A stretch of 34,379 bases of DNA from an uncultured Planctomycetaceae bacterium (GTDB taxonomy: Bacteria > Planctomycetota > Planctomycetia > Planctomycetales > Planctomycetaceae). Shown here in pieces: positions 13,201 through 30,782 of this stretch. The notes below the pieces were generated by a model. It did not search any database, was not told the DNA's origin, and saw only the letters and a program-made list of their open reading frames with translations. How positions within the stretch are numbered: the first letter of the stretch is position 1; each line of letters opens with the position of its first letter. The translations under genes and the position numbers were made by a program. The DNA is taken from the NCBI GenBank assembly GCA_913031625.1, contig CAJWGB010000034.1:1-34379 (forward strand). Direction: 5' to 3'.

Positions 13201-15543
13201 CTATAGTTCTTCGAAGGTCGCGTTGCCAATGCGATACTTCTTCCAGTCACGATAATCGAAGTGCCACCACTCAAATTCGTACACGGAAAAGTCCTCTGCT
13301 TCCATCGTCCGCCTGAGCAGGTCTCGATACCAGCGCTGCCGTGAGGTTCCGCCGGGATAGAGTGGGTAAGAGCGAGCTGAGAATTCATCGTAGCCCGCGA
13401 CCATCTGGATGGGTTTTCCGTTACGGCGATTGTAAAGAGTCAGGTCAACCGCGCATCCGCGATTATGACGCGATCCGCGTTCCGGATTGGCGACAAACTG
13501 TTTCAGTTCATCGGGCGTTGCATCCCAGAACATCCGGGTGACATGCCAGGGGCGATACGCATCATGAACAAGCAGGCCCAGGCCTCTGGATTTCAGTTGC
13601 TGGTTGGCACGCACCACAGCCTCAGCGGCAGGCCGCTGCATGAATGCTTTGGGCTGTTTGTAAAAGACGGCTCCCGTAAAGTTGTTGGTGCCGGCATAGC
13701 GAATATCCAGATGAATGGTGTCATCGCGGCTCACCAGTTCCGTGAGCTGAGTTTCGCGAAAATCTCCTGCTTCGTTGGGAGGGGATGCCTTTAGTGCACC
13801 CGTCCGCAGATCATCAATCGGGCGGACGGGCGTGATGCGAAAGGTCTCTCCGTCTTTCGTGCCGATCTCGCGTCTTACAAAGCGGACTTCGGCAGCATTG
13901 ACCTCGGTCGCGCTGCCGTCTGCGTCGCGTGTGAACTTCAGGCCCTCACCGTGATAGAGACCGTAGTCCGGAAAACGAAACGTGTCTTTGTCGACTTCAG
14001 TCAACGGGTAGTAATAGAACCATTCGATGAGGGCAAAAAGCTGGCCGGCATCTTCAAGGATGTAGAGCGTATTGTGGTCCCACCCATACTCGCCGATCAG
14101 CCCTTTCCACCGAGGCGGAATCTCCGCAGGCGGTCGATCCGGAACGCGCGAATAAGGTTTGCCGTCGACAACCAGGCGGTTGGCTGATTGCAGTTTCACC
14201 TCGGTGCCGAAACCGATCTCATCATCAACGATGATTGAGCCGTTGTCGGCAGCGGCCCTCAACTCATGTCGAAACACGCCGCGCTGCATGTAGGTGCGTC
14301 CATGCAGTTCGTTGATATGGACTCGGCCCGGGCCGTTGATCTGTGTGTAGCTGCCACGGAGATCGGCAGCCCTCGATGCCGGGAGTTCTGTTGAAACCTG
14401 ATAATCCGGCAGCGGCTTGTTGTCCTGCGCTGCAATCATGAGTCGTAGAGCATAGTCAGCCAGACGTCCGACGACGCCATTGGTGCCGTCGACGGAAGAG
14501 ACAGCTACCGCGCCCAGTTTTCGTTCCGGCAGTGCCTCGAGTTGGGTCGAAAATCCATAGACCGCACCTCCATGTCCGATTTTCTTATACCCATCGAGGT
14601 GCTGCACATGAAAGCCGAGGCCGAAGCGCTGAACGCGGCCGCGACCGTCTTTGATCGGAGTGGTCATCAGGTTCAGCATTTCCGGGCTGAGAATACGGCC
14701 GTCGGGTGTTGCACCCCCTCTGAAGAGGCAGGAGATAAAGGCAGCAAGATCGTTGACGCTTGAGTACAGATTCCCGGCCGGTCCTGTGCCAAGAAGAAAG
14801 TTGGGTGCTTCAAAACGTCTTCCATCGTAAGTCCTCATCCAGCCGGTCACCAGATGTGGTTCTAACTGCCGGGTGACGGTGAACCCGCTGTTATGCATGC
14901 CCAAAGGGTTCAGGATGGTGCTCCGAACCTGTTCCGGATGAGAAGTCTGCAACTGTTTCTCAAGCACGGCCCCGACGACTGCAATTGCGGCATTGGAATA
15001 CTTGGTTCGAGTCATGGGGCGGTACACGAGCGACGTGCGGTTGAGACTCTGCACGGTCGCGTCCAAGGATGGCTCGTCAGGATCGAAGTAGTTGCCAACG
15101 GGAGATTCGCGAACAAGGCCCGACTGGTGAGACATCATCTGACGCAGGGTGATCGGGATGCGCCATGGGTTATGGGGGTTCAGATCCGGAAGATAGGTCT
15201 GGATTGGAGCGTCGAGGTTTAACTTACCCTGCTCAACCATTTGCAGAACGGCAATGTCTGTGAAAAGCTTTGACACTGAGCCCACTCGATAAACGGAATC
15301 TCCGGAAGCCGGCCTGGTTCCTGCTGCGTCCTGAAACCCGAAGCCCTTCGACCAGACAGTCGTCTGGTCATCCACGATAGAGACTGAAAACGCCCCCAGA
15401 TCTTTGGTCTCGTGTTCGTGGCGGACAGCAGCTTCCAGTCTGCGAATGACGTCTGAGTATTCTGGGTTCCCTCCCTTCTGCGCCACGGCAGGCAGCAACA
15501 GGACGGACCCTAAAAGACTGAAAAGCGGTATTCGCGAAGACAT
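13201..15543 (-). CDS. Exported fusion: class C beta-lactamase-like serine hydrolase + VanX-type D-Ala-D-Ala dipeptidase
   Basis: 780 residues from the ATG at 15541-15543, chosen because a signal peptide starts there (MSSRIPLFSLLGSVLLLPAVA) and AAAAGGG (15550-15556) sits 6 nt upstream. Residues 25-350 are a beta-lactamase/DD-peptidase domain: SxxK at Ser89-Lys92 (SVSK), Tyr181-Ser-Asn183, and His323-Gly-Gly325. Residues about 350-590 are a beta-rich linker region I cannot name. Residues about 600-775 are a peptidase M15D (VanX/DdpX) domain: DAYRPW with the conserved Arg, the zinc motif SRHNRGCAVD (Ser691, His693, Asp700) and EWWH (Glu758, His761). All catalytic residues seem intact. The first domain could act as carboxypeptidase, esterase or lactamase, the second cleaves D-Ala-D-Ala. 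Export places both on periplasmic peptidoglycan. Divergent from the hydrolase at 15743. Confidence 0.92.
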   Translation of the reverse strand: MSSRIPLFSLLGSVLLLPAVAQKGGNPEYSDVIRRLEAAVRHEHETKDLGAFSVSIVDDQTTVWSKGFGFQDAAGTRPASGDSVYRVGSVSKLFTDIAVLQMVEQGKLNLDAPIQTYLPDLNPHNPWRIPITLRQMMSHQSGLVRESPVGNYFDPDEPSLDATVQSLNRTSLVYRPMTRTKYSNAAIAVVGAVLEKQLQTSHPEQVRSTILNPLGMHNSGFTVTRQLEPHLVTGWMRTYDGRRFEAPNFLLGTGPAGNLYSSVNDLAAFISCLFRGGATPDGRILSPEMLNLMTTPIKDGRGRVQRFGLGFHVQHLDGYKKIGHGGAVYGFSTQLEALPERKLGAVAVSSVDGTNGVVGRLADYALRLMIAAQDNKPLPDYQVSTELPASRAADLRGSYTQINGPGRVHINELHGRTYMQRGVFRHELRAAADNGSIIVDDEIGFGTEVKLQSANRLVVDGKPYSRVPDRPPAEIPPRWKGLIGEYGWDHNTLYILEDAGQLFALIEWFYYYPLTEVDKDTFRFPDYGLYHGEGLKFTRDADGSATEVNAAEVRFVRREIGTKDGETFRITPVRPIDDLRTGALKASPPNEAGDFRETQLTELVSRDDTIHLDIRYAGTNNFTGAVFYKQPKAFMQRPAAEAVVRANQQLKSRGLGLLVHDAYRPWHVTRMFWDATPDELKQFVANPERGSRHNRGCAVDLTLYNRRNGKPIQMVAGYDEFSARSYPLYPGGTSRQRWYRDLLRRTMEAEDFSVYEFEWWHFDYRDWKKYRIGNATFEEL

Positions 15544-15742: not shown

Positions 15743-17707
15743 ATGAATCGTGTCTGCGTTGTAACTCTGTGTTTGACGACTCTTTCAGCATCCGCCCAAA
15801 AGCCGGACGATGCAGGACTGTTGGCGCTGCGTGTGGAGTTAAATGTCCTGCAGCAAAAGCTCTCCGAACTGGAAGGCCACGAACAGCTGCAGAGCAGAAC
15901 CGGACGACAGCGTCTGGCCGATGTTGCAGTCTTTGCGAAGGCGGTGGAGTGGCAGCTGCGTCATGGGGAGTTTCCAAAGAAGGGCTACGCGGATCAGGCG
16001 TCGGCCGCATTGCAGATCGGGAACTTTCGTGCGGACAAGCTGTCAGAAGGCAAGGCTCCATGGGAACGGCAGGAGGGAGCGTCGATTCGTGGATACTGGT
16101 CACGGGTAGACGGATCCGTTCAACCCTATGCTCTGCGGCTGCCAAAAGGCGTAGACCCGGATGGAGTCGATCGGTGGCCGCTGTACGTAAAACTGCACGG
16201 TCGAGCGAACGACATGAATGAGACGAATTTCATTTTTCGGCACGAAGGCAAGGGGCTGGAGAAGAATCAGACCTGGATTCAACTGGATGTTTATGGACGC
16301 GGAAACAACGCCTATCGCTGGGCGGGTGAAACAGATGTGTTCGAAGCCATCAAAGATGTCCAGAGGCGATTCCGAATCGACAGTAACCGAATTACTCTGC
16401 ATGGCTTCTCGATGGGAGGCGCCGGAGCGTGGCATCTGGGACTTCATCACCCGGCGACGTGGTCATCGGTTGGACCCGGGGCCGGGTTTGTTGACTTCTA
16501 TAAATATCAGAAACAGACCGGGCAGCGTCCAGCGTGGCAGCATGCGACCCTGGGGATCTACGACGCCGTGGATTATTCATTGAACGCTTTCAATGTCCCT
16601 GTCTGCACGTATGGAGGGGAAAAGGACGCACAGCTGTTAGCCAGCACGACTGTGTTCGAGGCCGCAAGAGAACTGGGTGTCGACGTCAAAATGCTGATTG
16701 GTCCGGGAATGGGCCACCGATTCCATCCCGACAGCTTCGTGGAGTTCATGGCTTTTCATGCCGAAAAGTCAAAGGCTGGGCGGAATCGCGGATACAGTCG
16801 TCAGAAGATTCGGTTTACGACCCGGACATTGAAGTACAACACCTGCGACTGGCTGGCTGTGGAGGAGATGCTTCACGTTTATCAGCCGGCTACAGTCGAA
16901 GCCGAAATGAAGGACGGTAATGTTGTCGTAACAACGAAGAATGTTGCCATTCTGAAGATTGCTCGTGACGCCGGCAGTAATGCGATTATTGATGGAGACT
17001 ACCTGCCGTGTAATTCTGCGGGGGAAGGCCTTCTGCCGGATGTTTACTATGAACGAGTACGAGACGGCTGGGCCGTGCAGTCGTACGACGACTCAAAGAA
17101 ATGGCTTTCCAATCCTGCCATCCTGAAGCGGCACAATCTTCAGGGGCCAATTGATGATGCGTTTATGGAGTCGTTCGTATGCGTGCTCCCAACCGGGGAG
17201 ACTCGCTATACGGAACATGCGGCATGGGCCAGTTGGACTTATGATCGCTTCGCCCGGGAGTACGACAAATGGCTTCGTGCGGAGGCCCCTTCAGTCGAGG
17301 ACAGGGAACTCACAGACGAACAGATTCAGAGCAGCAACCTTGTGTTGTTTGGCGATCCGGAATCCAATTCTGCAATGGCCCGAGTTCTCAAAGCGAACAA
17401 TCCTAAGTTTCCAATTCGCTGGGAAGACGGAAAGTTTGTCGTCAACGGCACTGCATGGGACCCATCCGAATACGGTGCCAGTCTGATCTTTCCCAATCCA
17501 CTGAATCCTGCCCGCTACGTCGTGATCAATTCGGGGCATACGTTCCACGAGAAGGACTTCAAGGCCTCGAACTCGTGGCTGTTTCCCCGGCTTGGGGACA
17601 TTGCGGTGCAGAAAGTCTCCCGCAGGGAGGATGGTTCGTATGACGAAGAAACTGTGTTTGCGGAAAACTTCAACTCGGGGTGGCTGCTGCCAAAGCCGGC
17701 CAAATAG
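15743..17707 (+). CDS. Secreted alpha/beta hydrolase (prolyl-oligopeptidase/esterase-like)
   Basis: 654 residues from the ATG at 15743, which has AAGGA 7 nt upstream and opens a signal peptide (MNRVCVVTLCLTTLSASAQ). The hydrolase core spans about 110-345: LYVKLHGR (oxyanion region), the nucleophile elbow HGFSMGGAGAW with Ser223, a likely acid Asp295 in YGGEKD, and His325 in GPGMGHRFHP. This arrangement fits S9-type peptidases and carbohydrate esterases exported by planctomycetes. Residues about 365-654 are an accessory region I cannot name; part of it (LVLFGDPESNSAM) resembles the C-terminal half of similar large planctomycete hydrolases. Substrate unknown. It converges on mutY with only 12 nt between stop codons. 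Confidence 0.85.
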   Translation: MNRVCVVTLCLTTLSASAQKPDDAGLLALRVELNVLQQKLSELEGHEQLQSRTGRQRLADVAVFAKAVEWQLRHGEFPKKGYADQASAALQIGNFRADKLSEGKAPWERQEGASIRGYWSRVDGSVQPYALRLPKGVDPDGVDRWPLYVKLHGRANDMNETNFIFRHEGKGLEKNQTWIQLDVYGRGNNAYRWAGETDVFEAIKDVQRRFRIDSNRITLHGFSMGGAGAWHLGLHHPATWSSVGPGAGFVDFYKYQKQTGQRPAWQHATLGIYDAVDYSLNAFNVPVCTYGGEKDAQLLASTTVFEAARELGVDVKMLIGPGMGHRFHPDSFVEFMAFHAEKSKAGRNRGYSRQKIRFTTRTLKYNTCDWLAVEEMLHVYQPATVEAEMKDGNVVVTTKNVAILKIARDAGSNAIIDGDYLPCNSAGEGLLPDVYYERVRDGWAVQSYDDSKKWLSNPAILKRHNLQGPIDDAFMESFVCVLPTGETRYTEHAAWASWTYDRFAREYDKWLRAEAPSVEDRELTDEQIQSSNLVLFGDPESNSAMARVLKANNPKFPIRWEDGKFVVNGTAWDPSEYGASLIFPNPLNPARYVVINSGHTFHEKDFKASNSWLFPRLGDIAVQKVSRREDGSYDEETVFAENFNSGWLLPKPAK

Positions 17708-20128: not shown

Positions 20129-22123
20129 TTAACGTCTTCCGAAGGCTTCCTGCCATTCGCGTGAATCGGTGATTCTTCGGAGTGACTGAGGGATGTCTCC
20201 AGTGATTGCCACGCGGGCTGCACACACGGCAAAGAGTTCTTCCGGCCGGAGATGTCGAGTCAGATTCAAGAGGATGGGCACCTGATCACGATGGCCTGAC
20301 AGATTGAGCGGTGAGACAACTGTACGCCGGGAGTCTTTACCCGTCGCTGCAGCCAGCAGGCTGAGCCACCCACTGACACCGGCCGCCTCAATCATGACTT
20401 GAGTGTTGCCGGGAATTTGAGTCTGAAGGGCTTGTTGAGCCATCTGAATATCGCGAATGCGCATCGTATCCAGGGTCGTGCCGATCATCTGGAATCGTCG
20501 GCGGATCTGAATCTGTTTCTTTTCGTCGCCCTTCCATGCCGCACTGCCAATTCCACGTGGGCAGAAGAAGGCGACGGCCCGGCCTTCACTCAATCGTTCC
20601 CTCGTCTGTTGAACAAGCTGTGAGTCGGATTCGCTGAGTGACTGCCACTCGTCGTCGTTGCAGATCCGCAGGACAACAGGTCTGTCGCTGGTGCGATTCT
20701 TCGGGTGTGACATGATGACTGACAGCGGGACTTCGGAGCCAAAAGCAACCTTCGTGAGGGGCCCCAGCGTTTCAGAGGATTCTGTCGTCGTAACAACACT
20801 CTTCAATTCCTCTTTCGCGTCCAGGGAAGCGAGACTGCGACTGATCAGAGTCGACTCTGTTACTGCAGCCCATGTCTGTGGAGACGCATTGATCGCGTCC
20901 TGATCGCTTTGAGAAAACGGTCCCGGCGCTGCTACAAATTGCTCATCAATCGTGGTGTTCAATTGGTCATTCGGGAGAGCATCAAATACGCGAAGCTCTG
21001 CCGGTTCAAAGAACTTAGTGGCAGTCTTGTCGATCAAAGTGTCGTCCTGCTTCAACCAGCGATTCATCCAGCGGAACGCGTGAATTCGCAGTTCCTGCGT
21101 ATCACGGTGCGGCCCTTCTGTGATTTGCAGGCCGAGTGCGTCGCGCTTGTCGTACAGTTCGTAGATGTGCCGGACCTGTTTATGGATCGCGACGACTCCA
21201 TCGAGGGGAAAGATCGCGTCCTTGTCGGAGTTGCTGATGAGCAGGGGACGTGGTGCCATTAAAGCGGCGACTTGGGCGTAGTCCCATTGATGGGTGTTTA
21301 CGAAGAACATGCAGTCGCAGTGGCCTTCCACGCAGCCATCGATGACATGATTTCTCAACGTTGCAATTCCGGCGACTGGAACGGCACACGAGATTCGGTC
21401 GTCCAGCGCTGCTATCCACCAGCTGTATGCTCCGCCACCACTGCGTCCTGTGACCCCAATGCGTTTAGAATCGACCTCAGAACGTGACTCAAGGTAGTCC
21501 AGTGCCCGAATGCAGTTCCATGCTTCTACGCCCGCTGGGGTATAGCCTCGAGAATTCCACCACCAGCGGTTATGGCGATAGGTTCCATGGTGAATTCCCT
21601 CAATCTCTCCCAGCTGCAGCGTGTCGATTGTGAGGCAGACATATCCATTTCTGGCAAACCAGGCTCCATGGTGCTGGTAACCGGTTTTGTTGCCAAAGCT
21701 GGTTCCGTTCGGCCCTTTCATTCGCGCGTGGCCACAAACGTAAAGGATCGCCGGCAGAGATTCGTCCACCTGATGAGGGCGGTAAAAAGATGCAGTCACG
21801 TAGAGTCCAGGGAGCGTCTGAATCCAGAGCTTCTCAACGACAAAATCTTTGTGCTTGAGCGTGCCGGTGACTTTGACCTCCAGTTCCGTCCTCTCCGGAA
21901 GTGGGTTGAGGCCCAGCATGTCGAACAGCTCGCCCCGTAATCGATCGCGATCTGCCTTCCAGTCATCCAGCGATTCATAGCGAAAGAGCGACTGCTCTTT
22001 TTCAATGTGCGATACCCGCTTCTCAAACCATCGTTCAAGGGCCGGGTTGTCACGGAGAGACCAGTCGCGTGCAGCGACTGAGCCGCATGACAGAAGCATC
22101 AGAAGAAAAAGAGACTGCCGCAT
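20129..22123 (-). CDS. Secreted alpha/beta hydrolase, acetylxylan-esterase-like (Abhydrolase_7 type)
   Basis: 664 residues from the ATG at 22121-22123, which opens a signal peptide; LLSC at 10-13 could even be a lipobox, so periplasmic or lipid-anchored. The hydrolase core (about 85-365) has LPAILYVCGHAR, the nucleophile elbow VTGRSGGGAYSW with Ser228, acid candidates Asp300/Asp302 in SNSDKDAIFP, and His339 in EGPHRDTQELR. Trp/His-rich segments (HRWWWNSRGYTPAGVEAW) are typical of planctomycete acetylxylan-esterase-like enzymes that deacetylate plant or algal polysaccharides. The C-terminal 300 residues form a second, weaker alpha/beta-like region without a clear nucleophile. Downstream of glgP on the same strand by 176 nt; probably a separate unit. 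Confidence 0.87.
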   Translation of the reverse strand: MRQSLFLLMLLSCGSVAARDWSLRDNPALERWFEKRVSHIEKEQSLFRYESLDDWKADRDRLRGELFDMLGLNPLPERTELEVKVTGTLKHKDFVVEKLWIQTLPGLYVTASFYRPHQVDESLPAILYVCGHARMKGPNGTSFGNKTGYQHHGAWFARNGYVCLTIDTLQLGEIEGIHHGTYRHNRWWWNSRGYTPAGVEAWNCIRALDYLESRSEVDSKRIGVTGRSGGGAYSWWIAALDDRISCAVPVAGIATLRNHVIDGCVEGHCDCMFFVNTHQWDYAQVAALMAPRPLLISNSDKDAIFPLDGVVAIHKQVRHIYELYDKRDALGLQITEGPHRDTQELRIHAFRWMNRWLKQDDTLIDKTATKFFEPAELRVFDALPNDQLNTTIDEQFVAAPGPFSQSDQDAINASPQTWAAVTESTLISRSLASLDAKEELKSVVTTTESSETLGPLTKVAFGSEVPLSVIMSHPKNRTSDRPVVLRICNDDEWQSLSESDSQLVQQTRERLSEGRAVAFFCPRGIGSAAWKGDEKKQIQIRRRFQMIGTTLDTMRIRDIQMAQQALQTQIPGNTQVMIEAAGVSGWLSLLAAATGKDSRRTVVSPLNLSGHRDQVPILLNLTRHLRPEELFAVCAARVAITGDIPQSLRRITDSREWQEAFGRR

Positions 22124-22210
22124 GAGAGTCTTTCTGAACAACGCAGGAAACCGGTTGTGCGGTCATTGTGAGGAATTGCTGCACGCGGACAACTGTTCAG
22201 GAGTAACTGG

Positions 22211-25044: not shown

Positions 25045-27126
25045 ATGCGACTGACATTACGTACACTGCTTGCCTATCTGGATGACCGGCTCTCTCCATC
25101 GAATGCGCGAGAACTCGGGCAGAAGCTGAAACAGAGTCCGTTTGCTCAGGAATTGGCAGAACGCATTAAGGGAGTGGTTCGGCGACGTCGGCTGGCCCGT
25201 GAGGAGAATGCCAGGACTATCGATGCAAATCTGCTTGCTGAATACCTCGACGATCAACTGACACCTGAGTTGATCACGCTGATCGAGAAGGAGGTCCTGG
25301 CTTCAGACCAAAGTCTGGCGGAAGTCGCGGCCACTCATCAGATCCTGGGGCTGCTTGCTGACCCTGTCGAGCTTTCGCCGGTGCTGCGGGATCGGCTTTA
25401 TCAGCTTGATCCTGCTACCGACGGAAGCGTGGACGCAGCGGCATCTGCGGAGCAGCGGCCAGCGGACTGGCAGCCATTGCCAAAGCAGGCAGAGCAGCAA
25501 CGTCGGTCACCGATGATCCTGCTCGCGGCGATGGTGCTCGGGTGGCTGATTCTGCTGACAACAGATGGCAATCTCTTGGGTACCGGGACCCAGGACGATG
25601 AGTTGGTCGCACAGGCAGACCCGGATGGCAATGAAGAGCTCAGGGCTCACGATGATGGTGAGCAGAACAGCAACGGCGAGCACGCCACCCAGGTGGCGCA
25701 GGCAGCCAACACGCAACAACAGACGGACGGCACGGGGGAGAATCCGGCTGAAGAAATCGGCCAGGCAGGCACGACCGCTCAACATACGGGCGATGACAAC
25801 GAGACGGATTCAGGTGATGCCAAAGTCCCCAATCCCGTGAATCCGGATGCCGGGGAGAATACTGCAGGCACCGACACTCAAAGGGACAACGAAAAAGAAG
25901 GTGACGTTCCCAGGCCTGTTGTGGCCGAGTTGCCGCATATCGAGCTGATTGATACTGATAACGTTGTTTCACTGCTGGAACTGGAGACCGCGAAGTGGGC
26001 TCGGTCGGCCGCTGCCGGCATCCAGCCGGCCACAAGCTGGACCAAATACCTGAACGGGAAACTTATTGCAGTGCCGGAGCCGTTTACGGCTCGTTTACTA
26101 GCTCCGGATGCTGGTTGGGATCTGCAGCTCGTGGGGCCCTGTCTTGCTTTGGTTGATGCAGTTGAGGGGCGTGTGCGGATTGTAGATGGCCGGGGGCTGC
26201 TCCGGCGTTACGAAGGAGCTGAGGCAGCCGATTTTCACCTCGTAACGAATGGTGGAGAATTTATCATGAGTGCTCCTGAAGCTCCGGGGGTTGCAGCGAT
26301 CGGCTGTGGTCCGCGAATCAATGGTGCGACTCCGGAAGGTGATTCGGCCTATCCTCTTGCAAGTCATTCCCTTGTACAGATCTGCGCATATGAAGCAGAC
26401 ATTGCAATGACTCTTACTAATGCTGACGGCACTGTCCCTGAGCTCTCTGAACTGGTTGTTGGCAAAGATACCTGTCTCATGTGGGACAGCTCGGCCGGGC
26501 ACAAGCCAGAGGCCCGACAGGAAGGCGCTTTGCTTCCGGACTGGGTTGCTGCCGAGTCTGGAGAAACGGACCCGCTTGTCGCTCAGGTGAGAGAGGATGC
26601 TCTCACGATCTATTCTGGTGCAGAGTCTTCCGCTGACGCCGTCGTTGCGCTGCTGAAAGATAAGAATCCCCAGCTGTCGGGGTTTGGCGTGAGCCACCTC
26701 GTCCTGGACCGCGATATCGAGCGGCTCGCGACAACCCTGCTGGCTTCGGATCAGGAATCCACACGAGTTGGATGTGTGATGGGAATTCAAAAGCTCCTTG
26801 CCGAATCTGCAGTCTTTGAACAACGGCTGGTGGTCACTCTGGAGACACGCTTGCCGGAAATGGAGCTGGGAAATGCGATGAAGCTCATTCGAGGTGTCAC
26901 TCCCGTGGCAGCCGAGGATCCGGAAGTCAGTTCGTGGCTGCTCGAGTTGCTTCGCAATCAACGTGCGGCGATGCGAGAGTTAGCGATCCTGAATCTCGAG
27001 CGACTTACCGGAGAACGTTACGGGTTCTTCGCCGGTGATGATGCCACTCGTCGCGACGCTGCCCTGCGAAGATGGCGCAAGCACATGGAACGCAATGACG
27101 GCAGAATATTGAAAGCCGGACAGTAA
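25045..27126 (+). CDS. Membrane protein with duplicated anti-sigma-like N-terminus and large extracytoplasmic domain
   Basis: 693 residues; AGGA (25034-25037) lies 7 nt before the ATG. I cannot name a characterised family. The cytosolic N-terminus contains two similar helical units (LLAYLDDRLSP near 8-18 and LLAEYLDDQLTPE near 63-75), resembling anti-sigma-factor N-terminal helices but without zinc ligands. One membrane helix spans about 156-173 (MILLAAMVLGWLILL). Residues about 182-295 are an Asn/Asp/Thr/Gln-rich linker. The extracytoplasmic part holds a FecR-like beta-rich region (about 325-470, including VEGRVRIVDGRGLLRR) and a helical HEAT-like end (about 525-690). It could sense an envelope signal and hold a sigma factor, but no sigma gene lies in the window. 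Confidence 0.75.
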   Translation: MRLTLRTLLAYLDDRLSPSNARELGQKLKQSPFAQELAERIKGVVRRRRLAREENARTIDANLLAEYLDDQLTPELITLIEKEVLASDQSLAEVAATHQILGLLADPVELSPVLRDRLYQLDPATDGSVDAAASAEQRPADWQPLPKQAEQQRRSPMILLAAMVLGWLILLTTDGNLLGTGTQDDELVAQADPDGNEELRAHDDGEQNSNGEHATQVAQAANTQQQTDGTGENPAEEIGQAGTTAQHTGDDNETDSGDAKVPNPVNPDAGENTAGTDTQRDNEKEGDVPRPVVAELPHIELIDTDNVVSLLELETAKWARSAAAGIQPATSWTKYLNGKLIAVPEPFTARLLAPDAGWDLQLVGPCLALVDAVEGRVRIVDGRGLLRRYEGAEAADFHLVTNGGEFIMSAPEAPGVAAIGCGPRINGATPEGDSAYPLASHSLVQICAYEADIAMTLTNADGTVPELSELVVGKDTCLMWDSSAGHKPEARQEGALLPDWVAAESGETDPLVAQVREDALTIYSGAESSADAVVALLKDKNPQLSGFGVSHLVLDRDIERLATTLLASDQESTRVGCVMGIQKLLAESAVFEQRLVVTLETRLPEMELGNAMKLIRGVTPVAAEDPEVSSWLLELLRNQRAAMRELAILNLERLTGERYGFFAGDDATRRDAALRRWRKHMERNDGRILKAGQ

Positions 27127-28014: not shown

Positions 28015-29382
28015 TTAGGGCGTTTGGGAGTCCTGCTCCACTGATTCCCCTGGAATCTCCCGACCATGGGGGTCGACGTCAGGTGAGTTGGTGGCGTCAC
28101 TGAGTTGCTTACGCAGCTCTCGAGTCGTGAAGTGCTCAAACTTCTCTGCCTTATCATGGAGGGAGCCCGGCTGTACGGCTGTATGGGAGGCGAGATACTG
28201 CTCCCAAAGACGATGGGATCTCACGAGTTGCTGTGCCGAAGACGTTCCGGAATCTGTCAGCCGGAACTCCTGTCCGTCCGGAACGACCTGCTCACGACGA
28301 ATTAACAGGTACAGAACGCATTTGAGTGACAGTCGATCACTCAGCAGGATGGTCTGCAGGTTTTGAAACGTGGCAGACGTCTCGTGGTTGCGTTCCTGAA
28401 TCCGATAGAGGAGTGCGACGATGTCATCTGCAAGAATGCTGAAGGCCAACATTCTTCGACGGATTAAGCGGATGAGAATTCCGTGAGATGGACTGAACAG
28501 GGCGGCAAGGAACAGGATCAGCCCCGCAACGACGGCCATCATACCGGTTGTTGTTGTGCTTCCGTAGCCGAACCATTTTGGAACTTCCAGAGCGGCCACA
28601 TGTCCGCCAAACGCGGATGCCGCGGCCAACACTGCACTGAGAAGGATCATGAGCCAGAGTCGATCCGTCAGCAACCATGCGGCTGCCGGAGGGACGACAA
28701 ACATTGCCACGACCAGGATGTTGCCCACAGTTTCAAAGCTGGCAACCGCGGTGACAGCGACCAGGACCATGAGTAGGTAGTGCATGAATGAGGCGTTGAA
28801 GCCCGTCGTGGTCGCCAGTGACGGGTCGAATGATGTGACCTTTAGTTCCTTGAAGAATAGTATCACAAACAGCAGATTGATGAGCAGGACGGTTCCCAGG
28901 GTGATGACTGGTGTCGGGATGGAAAAGCCTGCGACCGACGTCATCGTCATGTTTTCAAGCGCTCCGTAGAGCACGCAGTCAGGGTGTAGATCCACCTCGT
29001 CGGCGGCCTGCACAATCATGACCAGCCCCAAAGCAAACAGCGAAGTGAAGACCACGCCCATGGATGCTCCTTCTTCGACGCGGCCGAGGCTGCGGATCCA
29101 TTCTGTCAACAGGGCAGTGACGACTCCTGCGATGACGGCTCCGACAAGCATCGGCAGGCTGTCACGGCTGTTGCTTAAGAAGAACGCGGCCGCCAGGCCT
29201 GGCAGGACGGCGTGGCTGATGGCGTCTCCCAACATGCTGAGTCGCCGGAGGACAAGAAAGTTTCCCAGCAGCGACGCGGCCACGGCGCACAGAACACCAG
29301 CCAGCACAATCTGACCGTCCAGTCCCCAGTCCCAGTCAGCAGGCAGGAGGCGAAGTCCAGGCATGGCGAGCAATTGAATCAC
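28015..29382 (-). CDS. Metal ABC transporter permease fused to a DtxR/MntR-like C-terminal sensor (second permease, YtgD position)
   Basis: 455 residues; GTG start overlaps the previous stop as GTGA. Residues about 20-300 are an ABC-3 (ZnuB/TroC/MntB) permease with eight or more membrane helices and the hallmark LRRLSMLGDAISHAVLPG. After RLIRRR, residues about 312-385 resemble a winged helix (ILADDIVALLYRIQE; LTDSGT). Residues about 385-445 match the iron-dependent repressor metal-binding/dimerisation domain: His390, Glu394, His409, Glu413, Glu416, His417, which reproduces the spacing of DtxR His79/Glu83/His98/Cys102/Glu105/His106, with Glu replacing Cys as in MntR. DPHGREIP follows, as in DtxR relatives. 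Last gene of the operon. The tail could regulate transport or, if released, transcription. Confidence 0.92.
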   Translation of the reverse strand: MIQLLAMPGLRLLPADWDWGLDGQIVLAGVLCAVAASLLGNFLVLRRLSMLGDAISHAVLPGLAAAFFLSNSRDSLPMLVGAVIAGVVTALLTEWIRSLGRVEEGASMGVVFTSLFALGLVMIVQAADEVDLHPDCVLYGALENMTMTSVAGFSIPTPVITLGTVLLINLLFVILFFKELKVTSFDPSLATTTGFNASFMHYLLMVLVAVTAVASFETVGNILVVAMFVVPPAAAWLLTDRLWLMILLSAVLAAASAFGGHVAALEVPKWFGYGSTTTTGMMAVVAGLILFLAALFSPSHGILIRLIRRRMLAFSILADDIVALLYRIQERNHETSATFQNLQTILLSDRLSLKCVLYLLIRREQVVPDGQEFRLTDSGTSSAQQLVRSHRLWEQYLASHTAVQPGSLHDKAEKFEHFTTRELRKQLSDATNSPDVDPHGREIPGESVEQDSQTP

Positions 29383-30782
29383 TGTGGGGACCCTCCCTCG
29401 GGCAGGGCTCGGAAGACGCCTGAATCGGAGAGGTCATGCGGACTGGCCGGAAGGTCAGGCTGCTCATCCTGAAGAAGCTTCTCCAGTTCGCTGACGATTT
29501 CGGGCTCCAGGACATGCTCAATCGCGTCGGCATCTCGGTCCACGCGGCCAGGGGCGACGTCGGCGTAATTAATCAGGTAGAGCTCCCAGAGGCGGTGCTG
29601 TCGGGTCAGCCGTCTGGCTTCGATAATTCCGCGGCGCGTCAGGCGGATCTCGCTGCCGACCCATTCCACGAGCTCTTCTGACTGGGTCCGTCTCAGAATA
29701 CGATGCAGTTGCTGCATTGACCAGCTGCGCTGCGGAAGCAGATCTTTCAGGGTCACTGACCTGCGAACGCTGCCGAGCGCAGCTTCCTGAGTAAGCTCAA
29801 GGGATTCGTAAATGGCTCGCAGGAGGTGCTGTCGGTCGATTGAACGATTCAAACGCTGTCGTCTGCGAGCCCGCGACAGAATGCCTCGGCGAGTCCCGAA
29901 CACCATGCTGATCAGAAAGAGGTTCGTGCTTACCAGAACGATCATGGCTCCGGACGGGAGTTTGGGAAACAAGGCGCTGCAACCCGCACCAATGTAACCA
30001 CTTACTGCTCCAATGATTCCTGCGCCGATAAACATGGGACGGAGGTCAGATGTCCAGAACCGTGCGGCTGCTGCAGGGATCACGAGCAACGCTATTACCA
30101 GAATCAGTCCGACTGCCTGAAGACCAACGATGGTGACGATTACCACGAGCCCCATCAGCAGAATGTCAATCCAGAGCACACGGTACCCTCGGGAACCGGC
30201 ATAGACGTCATCAAAACAGAGCAGCTTCAACTCTTTGAAGCAGAGAATACAGCCGCCGACGCAGATTGCTCCTGCGACAAAAATCAACTGCAGGTCCGTC
30301 GAACTCATGGTGGCCGTCTTGCCGAGAATAAACGACTCGAGTCCGGCCGCATGGCCCTGATTCATCTTCTGAATCACACCAAGGAGTGCCACTCCTGCTC
30401 CAAAAAAAACACTGAGGACTGCCCCGAGGGCCGTGTCTTCTTTCAGCCGCGTCTGACTTCGAATTGCCAAAATCACCACAACGCCGAGGAGTCCGCTGAG
30501 GGTTGCGCCGAAGAGCAGCACACCCAACGACTTCCCGTCCAGCCCAAAGGTCGGAGCGAGAATAAACGCGAGTGCAATACCGGGCAGGGTGGCGTGGCTG
30601 AGAGCATCTCCCATCAGGGACCGTTTGCGAAGCAGCGTGAAGCTTCCCACCATCCCGGCAGCAGCTCCGAGCAACGTGGTACCAATGATTACAATGCGGG
30701 TGTTGTAATCCGTCAGCAGAAGCACTCGCTGGAGCTCCTCCCAATTGGGAAACGCTGCAAGAGAAAGCAGGGAGTGTGTCAC
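29379..30782 (-). CDS. Metal ABC transporter permease fused to a DtxR/MntR-like C-terminal repressor domain (YtgC-YtgR-like)
   Basis: 467 residues; GTG start overlaps the ATPase stop as GTGA. Residues about 25-300 are the ABC-3 permease ([21 protein letters not shown]). A basic junction ([11 protein letters not shown]) leads to a winged-helix-like segment, about 314-390 ([30 protein letters not shown]). The metal-binding/dimerisation segment follows with His396, Glu400, Asp415, Asp419, Glu422, His423, at DtxR spacing with Asp at two ligand positions. Chlamydial YtgC has the same layout and is known to be cleaved to release the iron-dependent repressor YtgR. The Arg-rich junction here could be a cleavage point, but that is inference. 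Third gene of the operon. Confidence 0.92.

Follow-up and report, generated by a model that had tools for sequence, protein, structure and literature searches.

What does a bacterium do with a single enzyme that joins a serine hydrolase of the beta-lactamase family to a zinc dipeptidase of the VanX type? The question is raised by a gene within a 34,379-nucleotide stretch of DNA from an uncultured Planctomycetaceae bacterium (hereafter the window). We examined the architecture, conservation, distribution and neighbourhood of this gene and weighed the functions that these would allow.

Architecture of the fusion protein

One chain joins the S12 and M15D enzymes. An AAGGG sequence precedes the ATG at 15543 with plausible spacing. 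An alternative start would lengthen the reading by 67 residues, up to 15744; the leader is absent at the start of this longer reading, which also runs into the beginning of the divergently oriented gene next to it. A scan for promoters and terminators gave nothing above chance, and an Rfam search gave no match. The gene and the parts of its product are as follows.

13201..15543, minus strand: S12–barrel–barrel–M15D fusion gene, 780 aa, with a stop-free translation
15478..15543, minus strand: predicted signal peptide, residues 1–22; hydrophobic leader with an AxA-like end (heuristic)
14404..15468, minus strand: S12 (beta-lactamase-family) serine hydrolase domain, residues 26–380; Pfam PF00144, E 7e-62; structure match to S12 enzymes, Z ~36–41
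14140..14391, minus strand: beta-barrel 1, residues 385–468 (AlphaFold2); matches a barrel of D-aminopeptidase 1ei5 (residues 336–419), Z 8.7 over 75 residues
13864..14115, minus strand: beta-barrel 2, residues 477–560 (AlphaFold2), highly conserved; matches the C-terminal barrels of Ulm16, IS11, the P. abyssi PBP homologue and SurE, Z 9–11
13774..13863, minus strand: linker with one helix, residues 561–590 (AlphaFold2 secondary structure)
13204..13773, minus strand: M15D VanX/DdpX-type D,D-dipeptidase domain, residues 591–780; Pfam PF01427, E 1e-29; PDB VanX 1r44, E 8e-18

The Pfam envelopes of Beta-lactamase (PF00144) and Peptidase_M15 (PF01427) cover residues 37–365 and 610–766 of the chain, respectively, and the stretch between the two domains matched no Pfam family at E values up to 5. 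AlphaFold2, given 74 family members as input, modelled the whole chain with a pLDDT of 91.9 and a pTM of 0.90; values below 50 were confined to residues 1–25, which lie outside the fold. Modelled by itself, the two-barrel stretch reached a pLDDT of 92. Because the barrels match those of other S12 enzymes, the first 560 residues represent an S12 unit laid out in a familiar way; what is unusual is the M15D domain added to it.

Foldseek ranked the D-aminopeptidase DAP of Ochrobactrum anthropi (1ei5) first. In DAP, as in the fusion, the S12 domain is followed by two beta-barrels. The likeness holds at the level of the fold only: identity is ~20%, DAP has no M15D half, and the fusion scored 62 bits against the NCBIfam D-aminopeptidase model, whose cut-off is 443. 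The structural neighbours of the S12 domain included D-aminopeptidase, the R61 DD-peptidase, alkaline D-peptidase, ClbP and the Lip3 DL-peptidase. The S12 fold is also common to esterases and beta-lactamases. Since D-specific S12 enzymes are among these neighbours, we regard the S12 half as a likely D-stereospecific peptidase. Lip3 (9sn1) and ClbP, both S12 peptidases acting at D-residues, match the fusion with Z of 37–40, but they have other C-terminal parts and act on a lipopeptide or colibactin; Lip3 cuts the lipopeptide syringafactin (PMC13188892).

The leader MSSRIPLFSLLGSVLLLPAVAQ resembles a Sec signal peptide. By the same simple heuristic (not SignalP), leader-like N termini were found in 60 of 83 relatives, eight of them with a lipobox-like motif, as against none of seven cytosolic controls; among the 23 relatives scored negative, several have a hydrophobic leader nonetheless, missed by the heuristic. 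The signal peptide of the preliminary description thus stands as a Sec-like leader, at the level of a heuristic prediction. Judging from the N termini, the protein is probably exported, which would place the dipeptidase outside the cytoplasm.

Two conserved active sites

Both sets of catalytic motifs described earlier for this chain were found as described.

15268..15279, minus strand: SxxK, S89-V-S-K92 (nucleophile and base); 84/84 sequences
14992..15000, minus strand: YSN, residues 182–184; 84/84 sequences
14566..14574, minus strand: HGG (HxG), residues 324–326, in place of the class C KTG; H324 and G326 in 84/84
13552..13554, minus strand: R664, aligned with VanX R71; invariant
13444..13473, minus strand: SRHNRGCAVD (SxHxxGxAxD, residues 691–700), with zinc ligands H693 and D700; S691, H693 and D700 invariant
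13261..13272, minus strand: EWWH, residues 758–761, with catalytic E758 and zinc ligand H761; H761 in 84/84, E758 in 83/84

The protein thus has the SxxK, YxN and HxG/KTG motifs as well as the fold of an S12 serine hydrolase. Invariant among the 84 sequences were S89, K92, Y182, N184, H324 and G326 in the S12 domain and D661, R664, S691, H693, D700 and H761 in the M15D domain. Positions matching VanX R71, H116, D123, D142 and H184 are invariant, the D142 counterpart (D719) in an alignment of 74 rows, and the counterpart of E181 is all but invariant. We take the aligned positions to have the roles of their VanX equivalents; D719 would presumably bind the amino end of the dipeptide. Both sites being invariant in 84 fusions from at least four phyla, we argue that both are in use.

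The M15D half agrees with DdpX and VanX (MEROPS M15D) in its catalytic residues, its zinc ligands and the D142 counterpart. DdpX was the best NCBIfam model, at 136 bits; VanX scored 77 bits against a cut-off of 320. The half therefore falls within the wider DdpX/VanX family, below both equivalog cut-offs, and orthology to either enzyme is not assured. It is likely a D,D-dipeptidase. It differs from DdpX and VanX in being predicted to be exported, in being joined to an S12 domain and barrels, and in having no van genes alongside among the window genes examined.

Distribution of the fusion

Both domains were found together in 88 ORFs, the window's included; some come from closed isolate genomes, and a few are duplicates from one genome retrieved a second time. 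Of 392 planctomycete genomes, 22, counting the window's, matched most of the chain without a break, at 42 to 70% identity outside the window genome; in G196, the S12 and M15D halves are two adjacent genes. A scan with one genome per species yielded 80 loci, mostly full fusions. That the join arose in sequencing or assembly, or is a one-off fusion due to chance, was rejected as vanishingly improbable, given two-domain ORFs in independent assemblies with up to 72% identity over the full length. The domain-architecture check proposed in the preliminary description thus came out in favour of a genuine fusion.

The fusion occurs in Planctomycetota, Acidobacteriota, Gemmatimonadota and Fidelibacterota. 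One MAG labelled Bacteroidota (L082) clusters with Fidelibacterota and may be misbinned. Conservation in the other three phyla is evidence against a link with the unusual planctomycete wall, which had been suggested earlier and is weakened accordingly. Within the window's family the fusion is patchy (13 of 61 genomes). In a quick M15D tree, two changes sufficed to explain the fusion label, with a small sample of stand-alone domains picked by the search; this is compatible with one old fusion event.

Fourteen relatives carry an additional S12 domain at the front (L003, L004, L015, L032, L034–L036, L039, L041, L047, L056, L060, L067 and L097). This domain keeps SxxK and an H-x-G/S-like third motif, while YxN is replaced by YSS, YTT or YST; we take it to resemble LACTB. 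A limited search of the open-access literature found no published description of the S12–M15D architecture. As far as that search goes, the architecture is new, and its component domain families were already known.

Gene neighbourhoods

Neighbours were counted at 52 loci on genome contigs with at least 2.5 kb upstream, gene identities being determined on representatives. An enolase-superfamily epimerase or racemase, resembling DgcA or L-Ala-D/L-Glu epimerase, lies near the fusion in 16 of the 52 loci and is missing from the other 36; 16 is an upper figure, because the enolase-family match at one locus (L070) is closer to o-succinylbenzoate synthase. As background, nine enolase-family matches in the 6.7 Mb of the window's own genome correspond to ~0.02 expected per 14 kb. 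Also present were a DUF1611/DgcN homologue (10/52), a D-aminoacylase-like amidohydrolase (8/52), an amino-acid permease (6/52), an S13 DD-carboxypeptidase (5/52) and an RpiR-type regulator (5/52). Arrays of DgcN, epimerase and fusion are mostly on the same strand with short gaps; the pair at L034 is on the opposite strand. At two loci the adjoining gene is itself a fusion: S12 plus amidohydrolase in one (L036:3161-5962, plus strand) and S13 DD-carboxypeptidase plus amidohydrolase in the other (L078:5140-8451, plus strand).

Homologues of the DgcN/DgcA pathway thus adjoin relatives of the gene. In marine bacteria, this pathway turns D-Glu into L-Glu (PMC10845958, PMC12363236), and Planctomycetia and Acidobacteriae may matter for D-amino-acid recycling, as suggested from gene content (PMC12363236). 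The substrate of the homologues near the fusions is uncertain, because their scores stay below the equivalog cut-offs for DgcA and DgcN. Strong DgcA matches occur in 9 of the 61 genomes of the window's family. They coincide with the fusion in three, being adjacent to it in two (G307 and G137) and on a separate contig in the third (G393).

In the window, no conserved operon surrounds the gene, which stands alone among genes for DUF1549, DUF1553 and DUF1501 proteins, an alpha/beta hydrolase and MutY. DUF1611/DgcN is absent from the window genome, and no strong or close DgcA was found there; its best DgcA match (C50) was rejected as closer to muconate cycloisomerases. Two S9/esterase-type alpha/beta hydrolases lie near the fusion (15743-17707, plus strand; 20129-22141, minus strand); relatives showed no link between these and the fusion. 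Elsewhere in the window, two adjacent ABC-3 metal-transporter permeases (28015-29382 and 29379-30782, both minus strand) each end, in the same chain, in a C-terminal Fe_dep_repr_C (DtxR/MntR-type metal-binding) domain, and a 693-aa ORF (25045-27126, plus strand) has no Pfam match.

Proposed function and alternatives

The epimerase, DgcN, amidohydrolase, DD-carboxypeptidase and permease genes beside relatives point to catabolism of murein-derived D-peptides. We favour, with some confidence, an exported bifunctional hydrolase for D-amino-acid-rich peptides, mainly peptidoglycan debris, that feeds catabolism. Use of such peptides had been among the earlier suggestions, and it is the best reading. 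The leader would direct the protein into the periplasm or out of the cell. In that location the S12-plus-barrels half would act as a D-stereospecific peptidase, similar to DAP, R61 or a DL-peptidase, on stem or cross-link peptides, and the M15D half would split D,D-dipeptides such as D-Ala-D-Ala, coming from lysed cells or from the S12 half, into free D-amino acids. After import, these would serve as sources of carbon and nitrogen by way of racemisation or oxidation; for other species, we propose that the products pass into a route specified by neighbouring genes, either of the DgcN/DgcA type or through an L-Ala-D/L-Glu epimerase.

Plain DD-carboxypeptidases release D-Ala, not D-Ala-D-Ala. VanX cleaves the dipeptide, whereas VanY cleaves pentapeptides and not dipeptides (PMC6403190). 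Since VanX-type sites act on free dipeptides, serial action would require that a D,D-dipeptide be freed by the S12 site. Either both halves would attack debris side by side, or the M15D half would receive D,D-dipeptides from the S12 half. For the same reason, the sequential attack of both sites on peptidoglycan stems proposed earlier is unproven. A more ambitious version is tentative, and we would sooner doubt it than adopt it: a hitherto undescribed family of extracellular D-peptide degradases, with S12 and then M15D acting in series on one chain, S12 removing D,D-dipeptides and M15D splitting them. With two sites, or three in the tandem form, such enzymes would open a pathway dedicated to acquiring D-amino acids in Planctomycetota, Acidobacteriota and other phyla.

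PcgL of Salmonella is periplasmic and, to our knowledge, has no S12 half. As a D-Ala-D-Ala dipeptidase (PMC7933661), it is a precedent for a VanX-type enzyme apart from vancomycin resistance, and it lends weight to maintenance of the cell's own wall, in which a periplasmic DD-carboxypeptidase/dipeptidase would trim the cell's own stems and clear D-Ala-D-Ala, for recycling or tuning of cross-links. The similarity of the S12 half to R61 and AmpH and the missing catabolic neighbours in the window genome fit this role; the linkage to catabolic genes in relatives does not. Its patchy occurrence in the family indicates that the fusion is not core wall machinery, and we regard own-wall maintenance as unlikely, though the most serious of the rivals. 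Rather less probable is scavenging or detoxification of non-ribosomal or other D-amino-acid peptides such as lipopeptides and antibiotics, a scheme in which the M15D half would complete the breakdown of D,D-dipeptides. Lip3 and ClbP are among the top structural neighbours, but VanX-type sites select small D,D-dipeptides (established for VanX itself), and the operon partners indicate use of D-Glu or L-Ala-D-Glu and of amino acids.

The family names are what would suggest an antibiotic-resistance factor, a beta-lactamase plus VanX. In class C beta-lactamases the third motif is KTG, whereas the fusion has HxG; the NCBIfam class C model gave 63 bits where its cut-off is 415, and the VanX model likewise stayed below its own. 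Export is predicted, whereas VanX works on the cytosolic D-Ala-D-Ala pool, which would be out of reach for an exported enzyme. No vanH, vanA-type ligase or vanRS was found among the window genes examined, and Ddl-type matches lie on other contigs. The motif, the scores, the predicted export and the lack of van genes nearby make resistance very improbable and speak against the effect on beta-lactam or glycopeptide susceptibility raised earlier.

Implications

Metagenome annotations of "beta-lactamase" and "VanX" on such proteins should accordingly not be taken as resistance genes. The D-amino acids of bacterial walls form a large, slowly degraded pool in the sea and in soil. If the reading of an exported hydrolase for D-amino-acid-rich peptides is true, the fusion would offer a first step, open to experiment, in the scavenging of walls by planctomycetes and acidobacteria.
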